The notes beneath the pieces are model-generated. The model had not been told where the DNA came from. It saw only the letters and a list, made by a program, of their open reading frames with translations, and searched no databases. The position numbers and the translations under genes were made by a program. From Blautia parvula (GTDB lineage: Bacteria; Bacillota; Clostridia; Lachnospirales; Lachnospiraceae): a DNA stretch of 64,000 nt. Positions 6,021 to 9,612 of the stretch are shown piece after piece. The DNA lies in contig NZ_CP084061.1 in the NCBI RefSeq assembly GCF_020215665.1, positions 5,051,001 to 5,115,000 on the forward strand, read 5' to 3'. Positions within the stretch are counted from its first letter, which is position 1. Each line of letters begins with the position of its first letter.

Positions 6021-7067
6021 ATGAGGAAAATTTTACGGAAACTGATGCTTTTGGGTATTGTCACGTCCCTGACGGCCGGGGGGCTCTCCGGCTGCGGCCA
6101 GGAGACGAAAGCGGAGGCCGAATCCCAAGAAAAGATGGAAAAAGCAGAGACGGAAAAGGGAAAAAGTGAAGCAGAACCGGCGGAAGATAAACCGACAGCA
6201 GCAGTGACGGAACATCCTCAGTTCATCCCGGACGGTGTCCGCAGGCTTGTGCTGACAGAGGACGGCAGCGAGATCTTCGACCTGTCCAAAGAGCCTGCTG
6301 ACTACAAGATGGATTTTGATTATTGGGAGATCTTAAACCCCTATGATGAGATCGTTACAGTCAATACAGAGACCATGTATACGCTGTTTGATATGCTGAA
6401 AGAAATGGATCTCACCACTCCGGCGGCAGTGGAGGACGGTGTTGATACAGGAGTGGCGGACACCACCACCACAATGACCATTGATTTTGTAAACACCCAG
6501 GATGCGGATACCGCAAAACAGACAAAGTATGCGGACAGTACGGCAACTCTTTTGATCGGCAGCGCCGACGGGCAGGGCAGCCGTTACGTGGCAGTCAAGG
6601 GATATGAGGATGCTGTGTACAAAATTCCCTCCGCTTTGCTGGACGCTGTTTACGGGCTGAATCCCTTTGACTATATTCTGAAAATCCCTGCTCTTATCAA
6701 CATTGATACGGTTAAGAGCGTGGAGATCCAATCCGGTGGGAAGACATACACCATGGAGCCGGATGAGGACCGGTATAAAATGAATGGAAAGAAGGCGGAA
6801 AAAGAGGATTTCACCGCTGTCTACCAGGCGCTTTTAAATGTAATGCTGGATTCTGAGATAGAGGAAGGCAGCCTTCCGGAAGGTGACAGGGAGGAGAAAC
6901 TGCGCGTTGTCTATAAGAGAAACACGGACGATGCCCCTGAGGTAGAGCTGGTATATTATCCTTATGACGATACCTATGACAGTGTTTCCATAAACGGCAG
7001 GGAGCGTTTCCTGGTGAAAGCAGCGGATGTGGATGCATTGACAGAACAGATACAGAAGGCATTTTAA
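6021..7067 (+). CDS. DUF4340-type lipoprotein
   Basis: This is a predicted lipoprotein of about 348 residues. The N-terminus has basic residues, a hydrophobic stretch and the lipobox LSGC, then a Glu/Lys-rich linker (about residues 28-65). The remainder has the repeating beta-strand style of DUF4340 proteins, for example VKSVEIQSGGKTYTM. The family has no assigned biochemical function. ATG 6021 is preferred to ATG 6015 because it sits at normal distance from the GGAG site. It lies 16 bp after the GH3 gene and is probably co-transcribed with it, although such proteins are not usual partners of glycosidases. A terminator follows at once. Confidence 0.65.
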   Translation: MRKILRKLMLLGIVTSLTAGGLSGCGQETKAEAESQEKMEKAETEKGKSEAEPAEDKPTAAVTEHPQFIPDGVRRLVLTEDGSEIFDLSKEPADYKMDFDYWEILNPYDEIVTVNTETMYTLFDMLKEMDLTTPAAVEDGVDTGVADTTTTMTIDFVNTQDADTAKQTKYADSTATLLIGSADGQGSRYVAVKGYEDAVYKIPSALLDAVYGLNPFDYILKIPALINIDTVKSVEIQSGGKTYTMEPDEDRYKMNGKKAEKEDFTAVYQALLNVMLDSEIEEGSLPEGDREEKLRVVYKRNTDDAPEVELVYYPYDDTYDSVSINGRERFLVKAADVDALTEQIQKAF

Positions 7068-7075
7068 CAGAGAGG

Positions 7076-7115
7076 AAGGATCATACTGCAGACAGATGCG
7101 GTGTGGTCCTTTTTT
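7076..7115 (+). terminator. Rho-independent terminator after the DUF4340 gene
   Basis: AAGGATCATAC pairs with GTGTGGTCCTT, with two G-U pairs, and runs into TTTTTT. It ends the GH3-lipoprotein unit. The palindromic element at 7117-7177 begins directly after it. Confidence 0.7.
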
Positions 7116-7116
7116 G

Positions 7117-7177
7117 GTTACTGTTCACACACCCTTGTCCCGCGAAGCGTGTTACTGGGCACGCAGTGAACAGTAAC
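7117..7177. repeat. Palindromic intergenic element with perfect 12-bp arms
   Basis: GTTACTGTTCAC (7117-7128) and GTGAACAGTAAC (7166-7177) are perfect inverse complements enclosing 37 bp. No ORF is inside. Related arms occur at other intergenic positions in this window, suggesting a dispersed REP/MITE-like family. Confidence 0.65.
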
Positions 7178-7222
7178 CTTTTTGAACGGTCAAAGAAAAA
7201 TAAACTTCGGATTTAAATTCTG

Positions 7223-7257
7223 TATAATAAAAGTAATCAGTATTTTCTAATATTAAC
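7223..7257 (+). promoter_or_regulatory. Extended -10 promoter of kptA within repeat copy R1a
   Basis: TGTATAAT gives an extended -10 (TATAAT at 7223-7228). The stretch from here to 7257 recurs, with few changes, at 9498-9531 over the end of the kinase gene. Confidence 0.5.
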
Positions 7258-7275
7258 AGGAGGGAGAAGGAGAAT

Positions 7276-7821
7276 ATGACGAAAGAACAGATGAGCCGGA
7301 AGCTATCCTATCTGCTTCGGCATGATGAACAGATGATCAATGAGTATGGATGGGCTGACGTATCAGAGATTATCAGGAAAATGCAGGAAGATGTTCCTGC
7401 GTTTGACCAAACGCTTCTTTCGGAGATTATAGCGGAAGACAAAAAAAAGAGATACAGTTACGGGGCCGATAAACGGACTATACGGGCAAATCAAGGGCAT
7501 TCCGTGCCAGTGAAAGTGGAAATGAGGGAAGCCGCTCCGCCGGACTTTCTTTACCATGGAACCGCGCAGGGATTTCTGCCTCGGATTTTTACGGAAGGAC
7601 TCACACCGCAGAAGCGCAACTTTGTACATTTATCAAAAGATATAAAAACTGCCGGGAGTGTAGGTGCACGTCATAAAAAAGAAGGGGATACAGTGATACT
7701 TCGGGTAGAAACAGGAAGTATGTACCGGGACGGGTTTAAATTCTGGATTTCTGAAAATGAAATCTGGCAGGTAAAACACGTGCCTCGTGAATATCTTTCC
7801 GTGGCATCCTGGCTTCTTTGA
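7276..7821 (+). CDS. kptA: RNA 2'-phosphotransferase, KptA/Tpt1 family
   Basis: KptA/Tpt1 enzymes move an internal RNA 2'-phosphate to NAD+, giving ADP-ribose 1'',2''-cyclic phosphate. The signature residues are present: R15-H16 in LLRHDEQ, R70 in IRANQGHS, H94 in YHGT, VHLSKD, and R132-H133 in VGARH. The protein has 181 residues, the usual length, and the tetrad R-H-R-R looks intact, so it should be active. Bacteria generally lack the tRNA-splicing pathway that needs this enzyme in fungi, so its role here is unknown; RNA repair or ADP-ribosylation of nucleic-acid ends are options. It has its own promoter and precedes a protein kinase. Both genes look more A+T-rich than their neighbours by eye. 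Confidence 0.92.
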   Translation: MTKEQMSRKLSYLLRHDEQMINEYGWADVSEIIRKMQEDVPAFDQTLLSEIIAEDKKKRYSYGADKRTIRANQGHSVPVKVEMREAAPPDFLYHGTAQGFLPRIFTEGLTPQKRNFVHLSKDIKTAGSVGARHKKEGDTVILRVETGSMYRDGFKFWISENEIWQVKHVPREYLSVASWLL

Positions 7822-7861
7822 CAAAGTATTTTCCTGTAATAACCCTGCAGCATGGGAAACT
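7820..7861. repeat. Imperfect direct repeat R2, first copy
   Basis: The core TTTTCCTGTAATAACCCTGC, continuing into CAGCATGGGAAACT, recurs at 9571-9612 as TTTTCCTGTAATAACTCTGC continuing into AACATGGGGAGCT. The two 42-bp copies lie directly after kptA and shortly after the kinase gene, so they bracket the kinase. Confidence 0.6.
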
Positions 7862-7893
7862 AAAAAATCCTGCTAAAAGTTAAATTTTTATTG

Positions 7894-7899
7894 TATAAT
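7894..7899 (+). promoter_or_regulatory. -10 element of the kinase gene promoter
   Basis: TTGTATAATA gives a consensus TATAAT 42 bp before the ATG. The -35 is weak. The stretch TTAAAT...TGTATAATAAA resembles the kptA promoter, suggesting similar control of both genes. Confidence 0.45.
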
Positions 7900-7940
7900 A
7901 AATCTGACATACTCTAGACTTAAAAAAGAGGTGAACCGGA

Positions 7941-9509
7941 ATGTGGGAAGAAAATATCTGCAGCAGTGAAACGGGTGAATTAAAACCCGGGACTATTTTA
8001 AATTTCAAATATATCATTAAAAAAACCATAGGCAGCGGAGGCTTTGGCATCACATACCAGGGGTGGGATACCATTCTCAACATGCCGGTGGCTGTAAAAG
8101 AATATAGATGTCAGATGTATACTTCAGAAAAAGAAAAACAAAATTTTTGGAATGAAGCCAGAACCATGGCTAAATTTTCAGGCAACGAAGGCATCGTAAA
8201 TGTAAGGGATTTTTTTGAAGAAAATAAGACGGTGTATATCGTTATGGAATATCTGGAGGGTATTACCCTGAATCAATACATTGAAGCAAACGGAAAGCTG
8301 TCCCCATATGAAACATTTACCTATATGAAACCGGTTATGGAGGTATTGAGCAAAATACATAAAGAAGGATTCATACACCGGGATATCAGCCCTGACAATA
8401 TTATGATGGTGAAAGAGGGGAAAATAAAGCTGCTGGATTTTGGAGCAGCGAGAGATGTCAAAAATACTGACGGGACGATTACCGTTATCTTAAAACAAGG
8501 ATATGCGCCCGAAGAACAATATTGCAGGGAAAATAACCAGGGACCATGGACAGATGTCTATGCCGTCTGCGCCACTATATATAAATGCATAACAGGAAAA
8601 ACGCCGGATATCAGTCTGCACCGCCTGAGCGTTGACAACCTCAAAAAGCCATCGGAAATGGGAATCCCCGTTTCGCAGGAGTTTGAGCAGGTATTGACGG
8701 CCGGACTGGAGGTGCACAGACAAAACCGTATTCAATCTATTGACGAACTCATAAGAAGAATGGAGTTTGCATTAGAATGGGGGAATGACGGATACCGGAG
8801 AACAGATAGCAGACATATAGTAAAAGAAGCTTTATTTCTCCGGGGCAGAAGTAAAGGAGTGACACCTCTGATTGGGAGAGATGAAGTGCTGCCGGCAGTG
8901 AAGAGGAAAGTTTTTACCACTACCGCCGATAATCAGAATTTTCTGGAATTCTGTGTGGTAAAAGAGACCGCTCCTTTTGCGTCGGAGTATCTTATGGTCA
9001 GAAAATTTCGAGTGTATGGAATAAGACCAAAGAAACGGGAAGTTCCCAGAATAGAAGTGACATTTTATATAGATGAGCAAAAACATCTCGAAGTAAAAGC
9101 CATGGATCTGGAAACCAACAGGCGTCTGTATATTCAGGATTTATTCCGCCGTGACAGGCCTCAAAATACAGGAAAGCATGCAAGCCGTACATTGTCCCTG
9201 GAGACAAGCGGTGGAATGGCTACACCTGTTATCAGAAAAGGAGAAGTGCTGCCTGCCGTTAAAAAGCAGATTTTTTCCACTGCAGTGGATAATCAAACAG
9301 CAGTTGATTTATGTATTTACCTGGGGGAAGGGGCTTATGTAAAAGAGAATGAACTTGCCGGACAATTCAGGCTGGATAAGATTTCGCCGGCAAAGGCAGG
9401 GGAGCCACAGATAGAGGTTCTGTTTGAAATGGACAGGGATGAAAAAATAAAAGTAAGCGCCAAAAACCTGGATAGCGGAGAGATGCAGAGTATAACTATA
9501 ATAAAGTAA
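7941..9509 (+). CDS. Serine/threonine kinase fused to two DnaK substrate-binding-like domains
   Basis: Residues about 21-285 form a Hanks-type kinase: glycine loop GSGGFG (31-36), K53 in AVKEY, HRD with D148, DFG with D166, and a YAPEEQY activation end. All catalytic residues are intact. The C-terminal half is two tandem copies (about 296-400 and 419-522) that closely resemble the beta-sandwich substrate-binding domain of Hsp70/DnaK. The second copy has GGMATPVIRK, IFSTAVDNQTAVD, GQFRLDKISPA, PQIEVLFEMD and KVSAKNLDSGE, each matching well-known DnaK blocks. The first is more diverged (VFTTTADNQ, IEVTFYID). There is no Hsp70 ATPase domain, lid or transmembrane segment, so it should be cytoplasmic. 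I infer that the SBD-like domains recruit unfolded or extended peptide substrates or partners. An AGAGGTG site precedes ATG 7941. Confidence 0.88.
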   Translation: MWEENICSSETGELKPGTILNFKYIIKKTIGSGGFGITYQGWDTILNMPVAVKEYRCQMYTSEKEKQNFWNEARTMAKFSGNEGIVNVRDFFEENKTVYIVMEYLEGITLNQYIEANGKLSPYETFTYMKPVMEVLSKIHKEGFIHRDISPDNIMMVKEGKIKLLDFGAARDVKNTDGTITVILKQGYAPEEQYCRENNQGPWTDVYAVCATIYKCITGKTPDISLHRLSVDNLKKPSEMGIPVSQEFEQVLTAGLEVHRQNRIQSIDELIRRMEFALEWGNDGYRRTDSRHIVKEALFLRGRSKGVTPLIGRDEVLPAVKRKVFTTTADNQNFLEFCVVKETAPFASEYLMVRKFRVYGIRPKKREVPRIEVTFYIDEQKHLEVKAMDLETNRRLYIQDLFRRDRPQNTGKHASRTLSLETSGGMATPVIRKGEVLPAVKKQIFSTAVDNQTAVDLCIYLGEGAYVKENELAGQFRLDKISPAKAGEPQIEVLFEMDRDEKIKVSAKNLDSGEMQSITIIK

Positions 9510-9531
9510 TCAGCATTTTATAATATTGATG
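9498..9531. repeat. Imperfect direct repeat R1, second copy
   Basis: TAATAAAGTAATCAGCATTT and following bases match 7224-7257 (TAATAAAAGTAATCAGTATTT) with a few substitutions and one indel. This copy overlaps the last codons and stop of the kinase gene. Confidence 0.55.
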
Positions 9532-9570
9532 TGGGATACGGTGATGATTCGGACAGAAACAGAAAGATTT

Positions 9571-9612
9571 AACAAAAAATTTTCCTGTAATAACTCTGCA
9601 ACATGGGGAGCT
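9571..9612. repeat. Imperfect direct repeat R2, second copy
   Basis: This is the partner of the repeat at 7820-7861, with roughly four in five positions identical by eye. R1 and R2 lie about 40 bp apart here but are separated by kptA at the other end. Confidence 0.6.

Follow-up and report, generated by a model that had tools for sequence, protein, structure and literature searches.

A Hanks-type protein kinase fused to two DnaK-type substrate-binding domains on an accessory islet of Blautia parvula

Results

A kinase gene with two C-terminal SBDs

The DNA analysed here (the window, 64,000 nucleotides) corresponds to positions 5051001-5115000 in the one-contig 6.25 Mb genome of Blautia parvula. 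An open reading frame with an ATG start on its forward strand specifies a 522 aa protein in which a kinase domain is followed by two copies of the Hsp70 substrate-binding domain (SBD):

7941..9509, + strand: kinase-SBD-SBD fusion gene, 522 aa
8010..8732, + strand: Ser/Thr kinase domain of Hanks type, residues 24-264, with its catalytic residues
8832..9140, + strand: SBD1 (residues about 298-400), an Hsp70 SBD-beta with an altered pocket
9189..9500, + strand: SBD2 (residues 417-520), an Hsp70 SBD-beta with a retained pocket and changed ATPase-facing loops

Residues 24-264 matched Pkinase (Pfam, E 3.7e-42). In a 9-row alignment of the fusion kinase and 8 relatives, G33, G34, G36, K53, E72, H146-R147-D148, N153 and D166-F167-G168 were invariant, in agreement with the first-pass annotation, which had called the kinase intact. 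Scanned alone, SBD2 (residues 417-520) matched positions 393-496 of the 599 in the HSP70 model PF00012 (E 2.2e-24) and SBD1 (residues 307-395) matched positions 403-491 (E 7e-13). NCBIfam DnaK models gave the same SBD assignment as Pfam, and a phmmer search of PDB aligned the E. coli DnaK SBD 1dg4 over 104 residues without a gap (E 1e-22). The E-values of the Pfam, NCBIfam and PDB searches exclude chance matches. The DnaK blocks from which the SBDs had been recognised initially (IFSTAVDNQTAVD, PQIEVLFEMD and SAKNLDSGE) are all located in SBD2. The predicted structures of the repeats matched Hsp70 SBDs, the comparison to PDB being a re-alignment of Foldseek's own top chains. The fold assignment thus withstood both checks that the first-pass annotation had named as able to refute it, by structure prediction and by profile search. 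SBD1 and SBD2 each form the eight-stranded sandwich of the Hsp70/DnaK SBD-beta (C-terminal part of PF00012; PDB 1dkz, 1dg4), with which SBD2 also shares its pocket residues.

The fusion protein is unlike DnaK in other respects. It has tandem SBDs joined to a kinase, and its ATPase-facing loops are changed. No Hsp70 ATPase domain was found in the protein, as the first-pass annotation had stated, since PF00012 matched only the two SBD segments of the model. The (DV)LLLDVTP linker of DnaK had no counterpart ahead of SBD1 or SBD2 in the alignments. SBD2 has no alpha-helical lid behind it, its PF00012 match stopping two residues short of the protein end (520 of 522), and the predicted models show no lid helix behind SBD1 either. 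An assembly artefact was considered and thought unlikely, as the genome consists of a single contig, the frame runs through without a break and GC3 is low in both halves. The domain fusion is real and unusual. Elsewhere in this genome, a 368-aa frame (G000:C1:5870531-5870824, L005) matched Hsp70 model positions 136-239 only (E 4.1e-13).

The fusion gene lies on an accessory islet

The fusion gene shares an islet with one other gene, and direct repeats sit in and near the islet edges:

7066..9579, no strand: islet (kptA + kinase-SBD); two sister species lack it and have colinear flanks
7276..7821, + strand: kptA / Tpt1 RNA 2'-phosphotransferase, second islet gene, PF01885 E 6e-36
7230..7254, + strand: direct repeat D3, left copy, 25 nt, 92% to 9503-9527
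9503..9527, + strand: direct repeat D3, right copy, pairs with 7230-7254
7817..7861, + strand: left copy of direct repeat D2, lying upstream of the kinase gene, 45 nt, 84% to 9568-9612
9568..9612, + strand: direct repeat D2, right copy, pairs with 7817-7861

In DNA alignments with the sister genomes, G009 has 140 bp in place of window 7066-9579 and G008 has 79 bp in place of window 7116-9584, while the flanks are colinear on both sides at about 81-87% identity (89% for one 63-bp piece). The histidine kinase downstream of the islet has relatives 84-85% identical in both genomes. A D2-like segment occurs as a single copy in the sister loci, and short-word blastn found no D3 there. The GC3 values of kptA (0.44), the kinase part (0.45) and the SBDs (0.39) were below the 0.57-0.60 of three flanking genes. 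The sister-locus gaps, the GC3 values and the repeats together mark the two genes as an islet that was either acquired or lost differentially.

At E<=1e-10 there were no kptA matches in 19/19 other genomes of the genus; at E<=1e-25 they occurred in 59/397 family genomes, own included. A functional partnership between kptA and the kinase was rejected for now, because a kinase neighboured kptA in 0/29 fetched relatives (about 1.5 kb each side or less). The left islet edge carries a terminator-like hairpin with a T-run (window 7072-7115), just after the gene for a DUF4340 lipoprotein. A search of the window that tolerated up to 3 mismatches found no CIRCE-like heat-shock element, and a promoter scan returned 2 sites versus a mean of 5.4 in shuffles.

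Relatives of the kinase carry varied tails

The closest kinase found was a paralog in the same genome (3651050-3651853; 61% identity over residues 11-278), which belongs to a 940-aa kinase-TM-LRR protein (L067 6173-8995). The HRDISPDN loop is common to both kinases. The paralog continues into a TM-like segment and LRR, whereas the fusion kinase continues into two SBDs and has no TM-like segment. Genes for FHA, PP2C, FHA-kinase and PBP transpeptidase proteins neighbour the paralog, as does a putative FtsW-like gene, named from its sequence with no profile match. In this region (L067 3193-11694) signalling genes are clustered next to those of cell-wall enzymes, and the closest relative of the fusion kinase is among them. 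An N-lobe insertion of ~20 residues (alignment columns about 63-82) is present in 6/8 aligned relatives; the fusion kinase, the paralog and L041 are without it.

Kinase matches at E<=1e-45 were found in 76/397 family genomes and in 26/391 class genomes, own included in both cases and with at most 3 candidates per genome scored in the matches listed. The tails of 10 relatives, picked among fetched loci, contained LRR (3), SH3_3 (2), Lectin_C (1) or no domain above the cut-off (4). By a simple hydropathy rule, a TM-like segment was present in 85/105 kinase ORFs with a tail of at least 60 residues. The fusion kinase is among the 20/105 without one, as are the three LRR-tailed relatives; the rule found none after the kinase domain of the fusion, and the protein is probably cytosolic. 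A PADLOC defence label was rejected as evidence, because it comes from general kinase matches.

The fusion was found in one genome

Among 117 kinase ORFs searched with an SBD profile up to E 10, only the fusion matched (0/116 others). These ORFs came from 29 family loci, 29 genus-search loci, the paralog locus and 40 further regions among the family-search matches listed; some are partial or counted twice in overlapping loci, and one contig-end region was skipped. Class-search loci added 36 further kinase ORFs (28 loci), none with an SBD. With SBD1 as the query, 348/397 family genomes, own included, had a match at 1e-13, and the matches listed from other genomes all had the strength expected of DnaK, at E 2e-16 or weaker and 38-43% identity. 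The SBD was placed as in DnaK in 11/11 fetched matches. Use of SBD1+SBD2 as the query in 41 relatives gave DnaK-level matches and otherwise only weak ones (E 9e-9 or weaker) in 564-639 aa frames. Of 324 viral-contig SBD relatives, the best 80 contained the ATPase domain in 80/80 cases and a kinase in 0/80.

The fusion was found in its own genome only among 20 genomes of the genus, viral contigs gave no match to the whole protein, and 82 plasmid records matched, none of them covering >80% of the query. A scan of genome contigs for orthologs returned none; it is a weak scan that needs exact 8-residue stretches and finds near copies only. The degenerate pattern VL-P-x-VK-[KR]-x-[IV]-F-[ST]-T hit 5 loci with Proteobacteria-type names and no SBD similarity, probably by chance. 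For kinase-SBD fusions in other phyla, the coverage was that of these two genome-contig scans and so extended to near copies.

A literature search of open-licence papers found no kinase fused to SBDs only. Hsp70-containing conflict systems are described in PMC7159879, with no such kinase-SBD fusion in the accessible part of that paper. The initial claim that no kinase of this layout was known nevertheless needs a qualifier, because a 2005 survey lists a 'Kinase + HSP70' protein in Pirellula sp. (gi|32474490; PMC1262709). Like the fusion, that protein is a bacterial Ser/Thr kinase whose C-terminal region is homologous to Hsp70. The comparison is by description, and the accessible text of the survey leaves unspecified whether ATPase domain or SBD is meant and whether in one or two copies.

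The two SBDs probably derive from one duplicated ancestor

SBD2 was 53% identical to its best DnaK row (closest rows 50-53%) and SBD1 44%, in line with the initial remark that the second copy is the better conserved. The two are 34% identical to each other, each being closer to its best DnaK. Both have EVLPA where 6/6 aligned DnaKs have TTIPT, and a nucleotide repeat spans this motif:

8862..8935, + strand: SBD1 copy of direct nucleotide repeat D1, spanning EVLPAVK, 74 nt, 72% to 9222-9295
9222..9295, + strand: direct nucleotide repeat D1, copy in SBD2, pairs with 8862-8935

The common EVLPA and the repeat across it make one duplicated ancestor likely. A tree was not decisive as to SBD origin, since SBD1 and SBD2 grouped weakly (49/79) on very long branches over 108 columns.

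SBD2 keeps the peptide pocket

E. coli residue numbering for the SBDs was taken from the ungapped phmmer alignment to 1dg4, and the SBD1 counts assume no gap versus SBD2, as in their alignment. Conservation was scored against 75 distinct DnaK rows, counting only columns with at least 90% one residue. Positions 435, 472 and 474 were included as pocket residues of the DnaK SBD, which we take them to be. Pocket hotspots, allosteric residues and the ranges of loops L2,3, L4,5 and L6,7 were those given in the accessible part of PMC4664246, and the pocket set was widened from its loop ranges (404-406, 428-434).

SBD2 kept 11/13 of the conserved pocket columns, 3/11 of the ATPase-facing columns and 25/38 of the others. 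The pocket residues retained were T403, G405, G406, F426, S427, T428, D431, Q433, V436, I472 and V474, and the two changes (I401L and I438L) are conservative. Pocket and ATPase face differed with p 0.011, which serves as a guide only given the small sample and residue sets chosen by the analyst. In the aligned residues of SBD2 the ATPase-coupling surface is thus changed more than the peptide pocket, and conservation of the pocket does not significantly exceed that of the remaining domain (p 0.30). Position N415, Asn in 75/75 DnaK rows, is Gly in SBD2; N415G and mutations of the VLLL linker are reported to impair allostery in DnaK (PMC4664246). SBD2 residue 404, in the arch, is Ser, a position at which the 75 rows vary, with Leu (31), Met (27), Ala (13) and Ser (1) among the residues. 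In DnaK, affinity reportedly falls >10-fold with V436F, A429W and M404A (PMC4664246).

SBD1 kept 6/13 of the pocket columns, 2/11 of the ATPase-facing and 19/36 of the others (pocket vs face, p 0.21). Its changed pocket columns are I401L, T403G, G405S, G406K, S427T, V436L and I438F, and position 404 is also changed (M404R). Loops L2,3, L4,5 and L6,7 are changed in both copies. The first-pass annotation had proposed that peptide capture by an SBD not gated by ATP could let the kinase select unfolded or extended substrates. Judged by sequence, ungated capture is supported for SBD2 only, with its pocket kept and its ATPase-facing surface changed; SBD1 has lost much of its pocket. That loss fits the suggestion of different partners for the two copies, but it also fits plain decay.

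Discussion

We tentatively favour, at somewhat less than even chances, a cytosolic Hanks-type kinase, accessory to the genome, that carries a duplicated, DnaK-derived SBD-beta as its tail. SBD2 would, like DnaK, bind hydrophobic peptide segments that are short and extended, but weakly and fast, without ATP gating and without a lid. Kinase activity would thereby be tied to exposed, unfolded or nascent segments, either because clients dock as substrates or because SBD2 occupancy alters the kinase. SBD1, its canonical pocket lost, might serve as spacer or stabiliser, or bind with a different specificity. The most likely function appears to be that SBD2 engages extended peptides weakly and independently of ATP, in some link with phosphorylation, although the physiological role, like the binding and its coupling, is something we infer.

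Several observations argue for this reading. The SBD-beta identity is given by both profile and fold, the SBD2 pocket and the kinase catalytic residues are kept, the ATPase-facing loops of SBD2 are changed, and there is no TM-like segment. The tails of related kinases vary, with LRR, SH3_3 or Lectin_C in 6/10 and LRR in the own-genome paralog. There is also a precedent in Ssz1 of the yeast ribosome-associated complex, which has no lid and no ATP hydrolysis and binds nascent chains through its SBD-beta with low affinity and transiently (PMC7083937). Unlike the fusion kinase, Ssz1 keeps its ATP-binding domain, has no kinase and works with Zuo1. Other observations point the other way. Residue 404 is Ser, and M404A weakens DnaK binding, although 404 varies among DnaKs. 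The lidless DnaK SBD binds with a kon of 2e4 per M per s and a koff of 12.5 per s (PMC6017645), which on division give a Kd of ~0.6 mM, so without a lid SBD2 would be expected to bind peptides weakly. The p of 0.30, the lack of pocket retention in SBD1, the single sequence of this layout, the lack of a CIRCE-like element and the lack of a kinase beside 29 kptA relatives count against the reading as well.

It is possible, though unlikely, that the SBDs are only a scaffold, retained for the sake of stability as inert beta-sandwich spacers or to allow dimerisation, and that the kinase works like its relatives with no peptide bound. The lost SBD1 pocket (6/13), an SBD2 pocket no better kept than its surroundings, the missing lid and the single sequence in the searches made would all fit. 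However, SBD2 keeps F426, V436, Q433, T403, G405 and G406 while its ATPase-facing loops are changed, and such sparing of the pocket is not expected of a decayed spacer.

We consider it improbable that the kinase targets the DnaK system itself, with the SBDs binding GrpE, J-proteins or the DnaK linker and the partners being phosphorylated. Co-chaperones contact the Hsp70 ATPase domain, which is absent here, and loops L2,3, L4,5 and L6,7, which face that domain, are changed in both copies. The closeness of SBD2 to DnaK would suit such targeting, and BiP oligomers form when the linker of one protomer enters the SBD of another (PMC4608358). A recently assembled chimera with no selected function, heading for loss, seems a shade more improbable. 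The single case in the searches made and the location on an accessory islet, with direct repeats close to the islet edges, are compatible with it, but the frame is open with its kinase catalytic residues, and the SBDs, only 34% alike, both keep fold-defining sequence, suggesting that they have been coding for a long time. Least probable, by a small margin, is an integrated decoy in an accessory defence islet, in which foreign or phage proteins that bind DnaK SBDs would trigger the kinase: the 2.5 kb islet, which two sister species lack and whose GC3 is below that of its flanks, and the PADLOC kinase models are in its favour, but the PADLOC matches listed (25 of 35) fall within residues 11-294 as general kinase similarity, the two neighbours checked match no PADLOC family, and kptA relatives have no kinase neighbour (0/29).

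A more specific form of the peptide-binding reading, which is doubtful, is a kinase that reads unfolded protein: a low-affinity segment in cis would hold SBD2, uncoupled from ATP, until exposed hydrophobic segments of clients displace it, switching the kinase on or delivering the client. It is modelled on the LP-motif of Zuo1, an inbuilt low-affinity substrate that occupies Ssz1 (PMC7083937).

One SBD copy still looks able to grip, and the kinase may read or tag misfolded protein. IRE1 and PERK, the unfolded-protein sensor kinases of eukaryotes, are membrane proteins with another sensor fold. If the sensing proposed here is right, they would share with the fusion the logic of a kinase joined to a reader of unfolded peptides, and the fusion would be a cytosolic, chaperone-derived counterpart built by domain capture from DnaK. 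If SBD2 binds peptides, the protein would be a natural experiment in which the peptide-binding module of DnaK has been cut off from the ATP motor and coupled to signalling. It would then offer a direct way to ask what a lidless SBD does alone, and whether bacteria drive phosphorylation by chaperone-type recognition.
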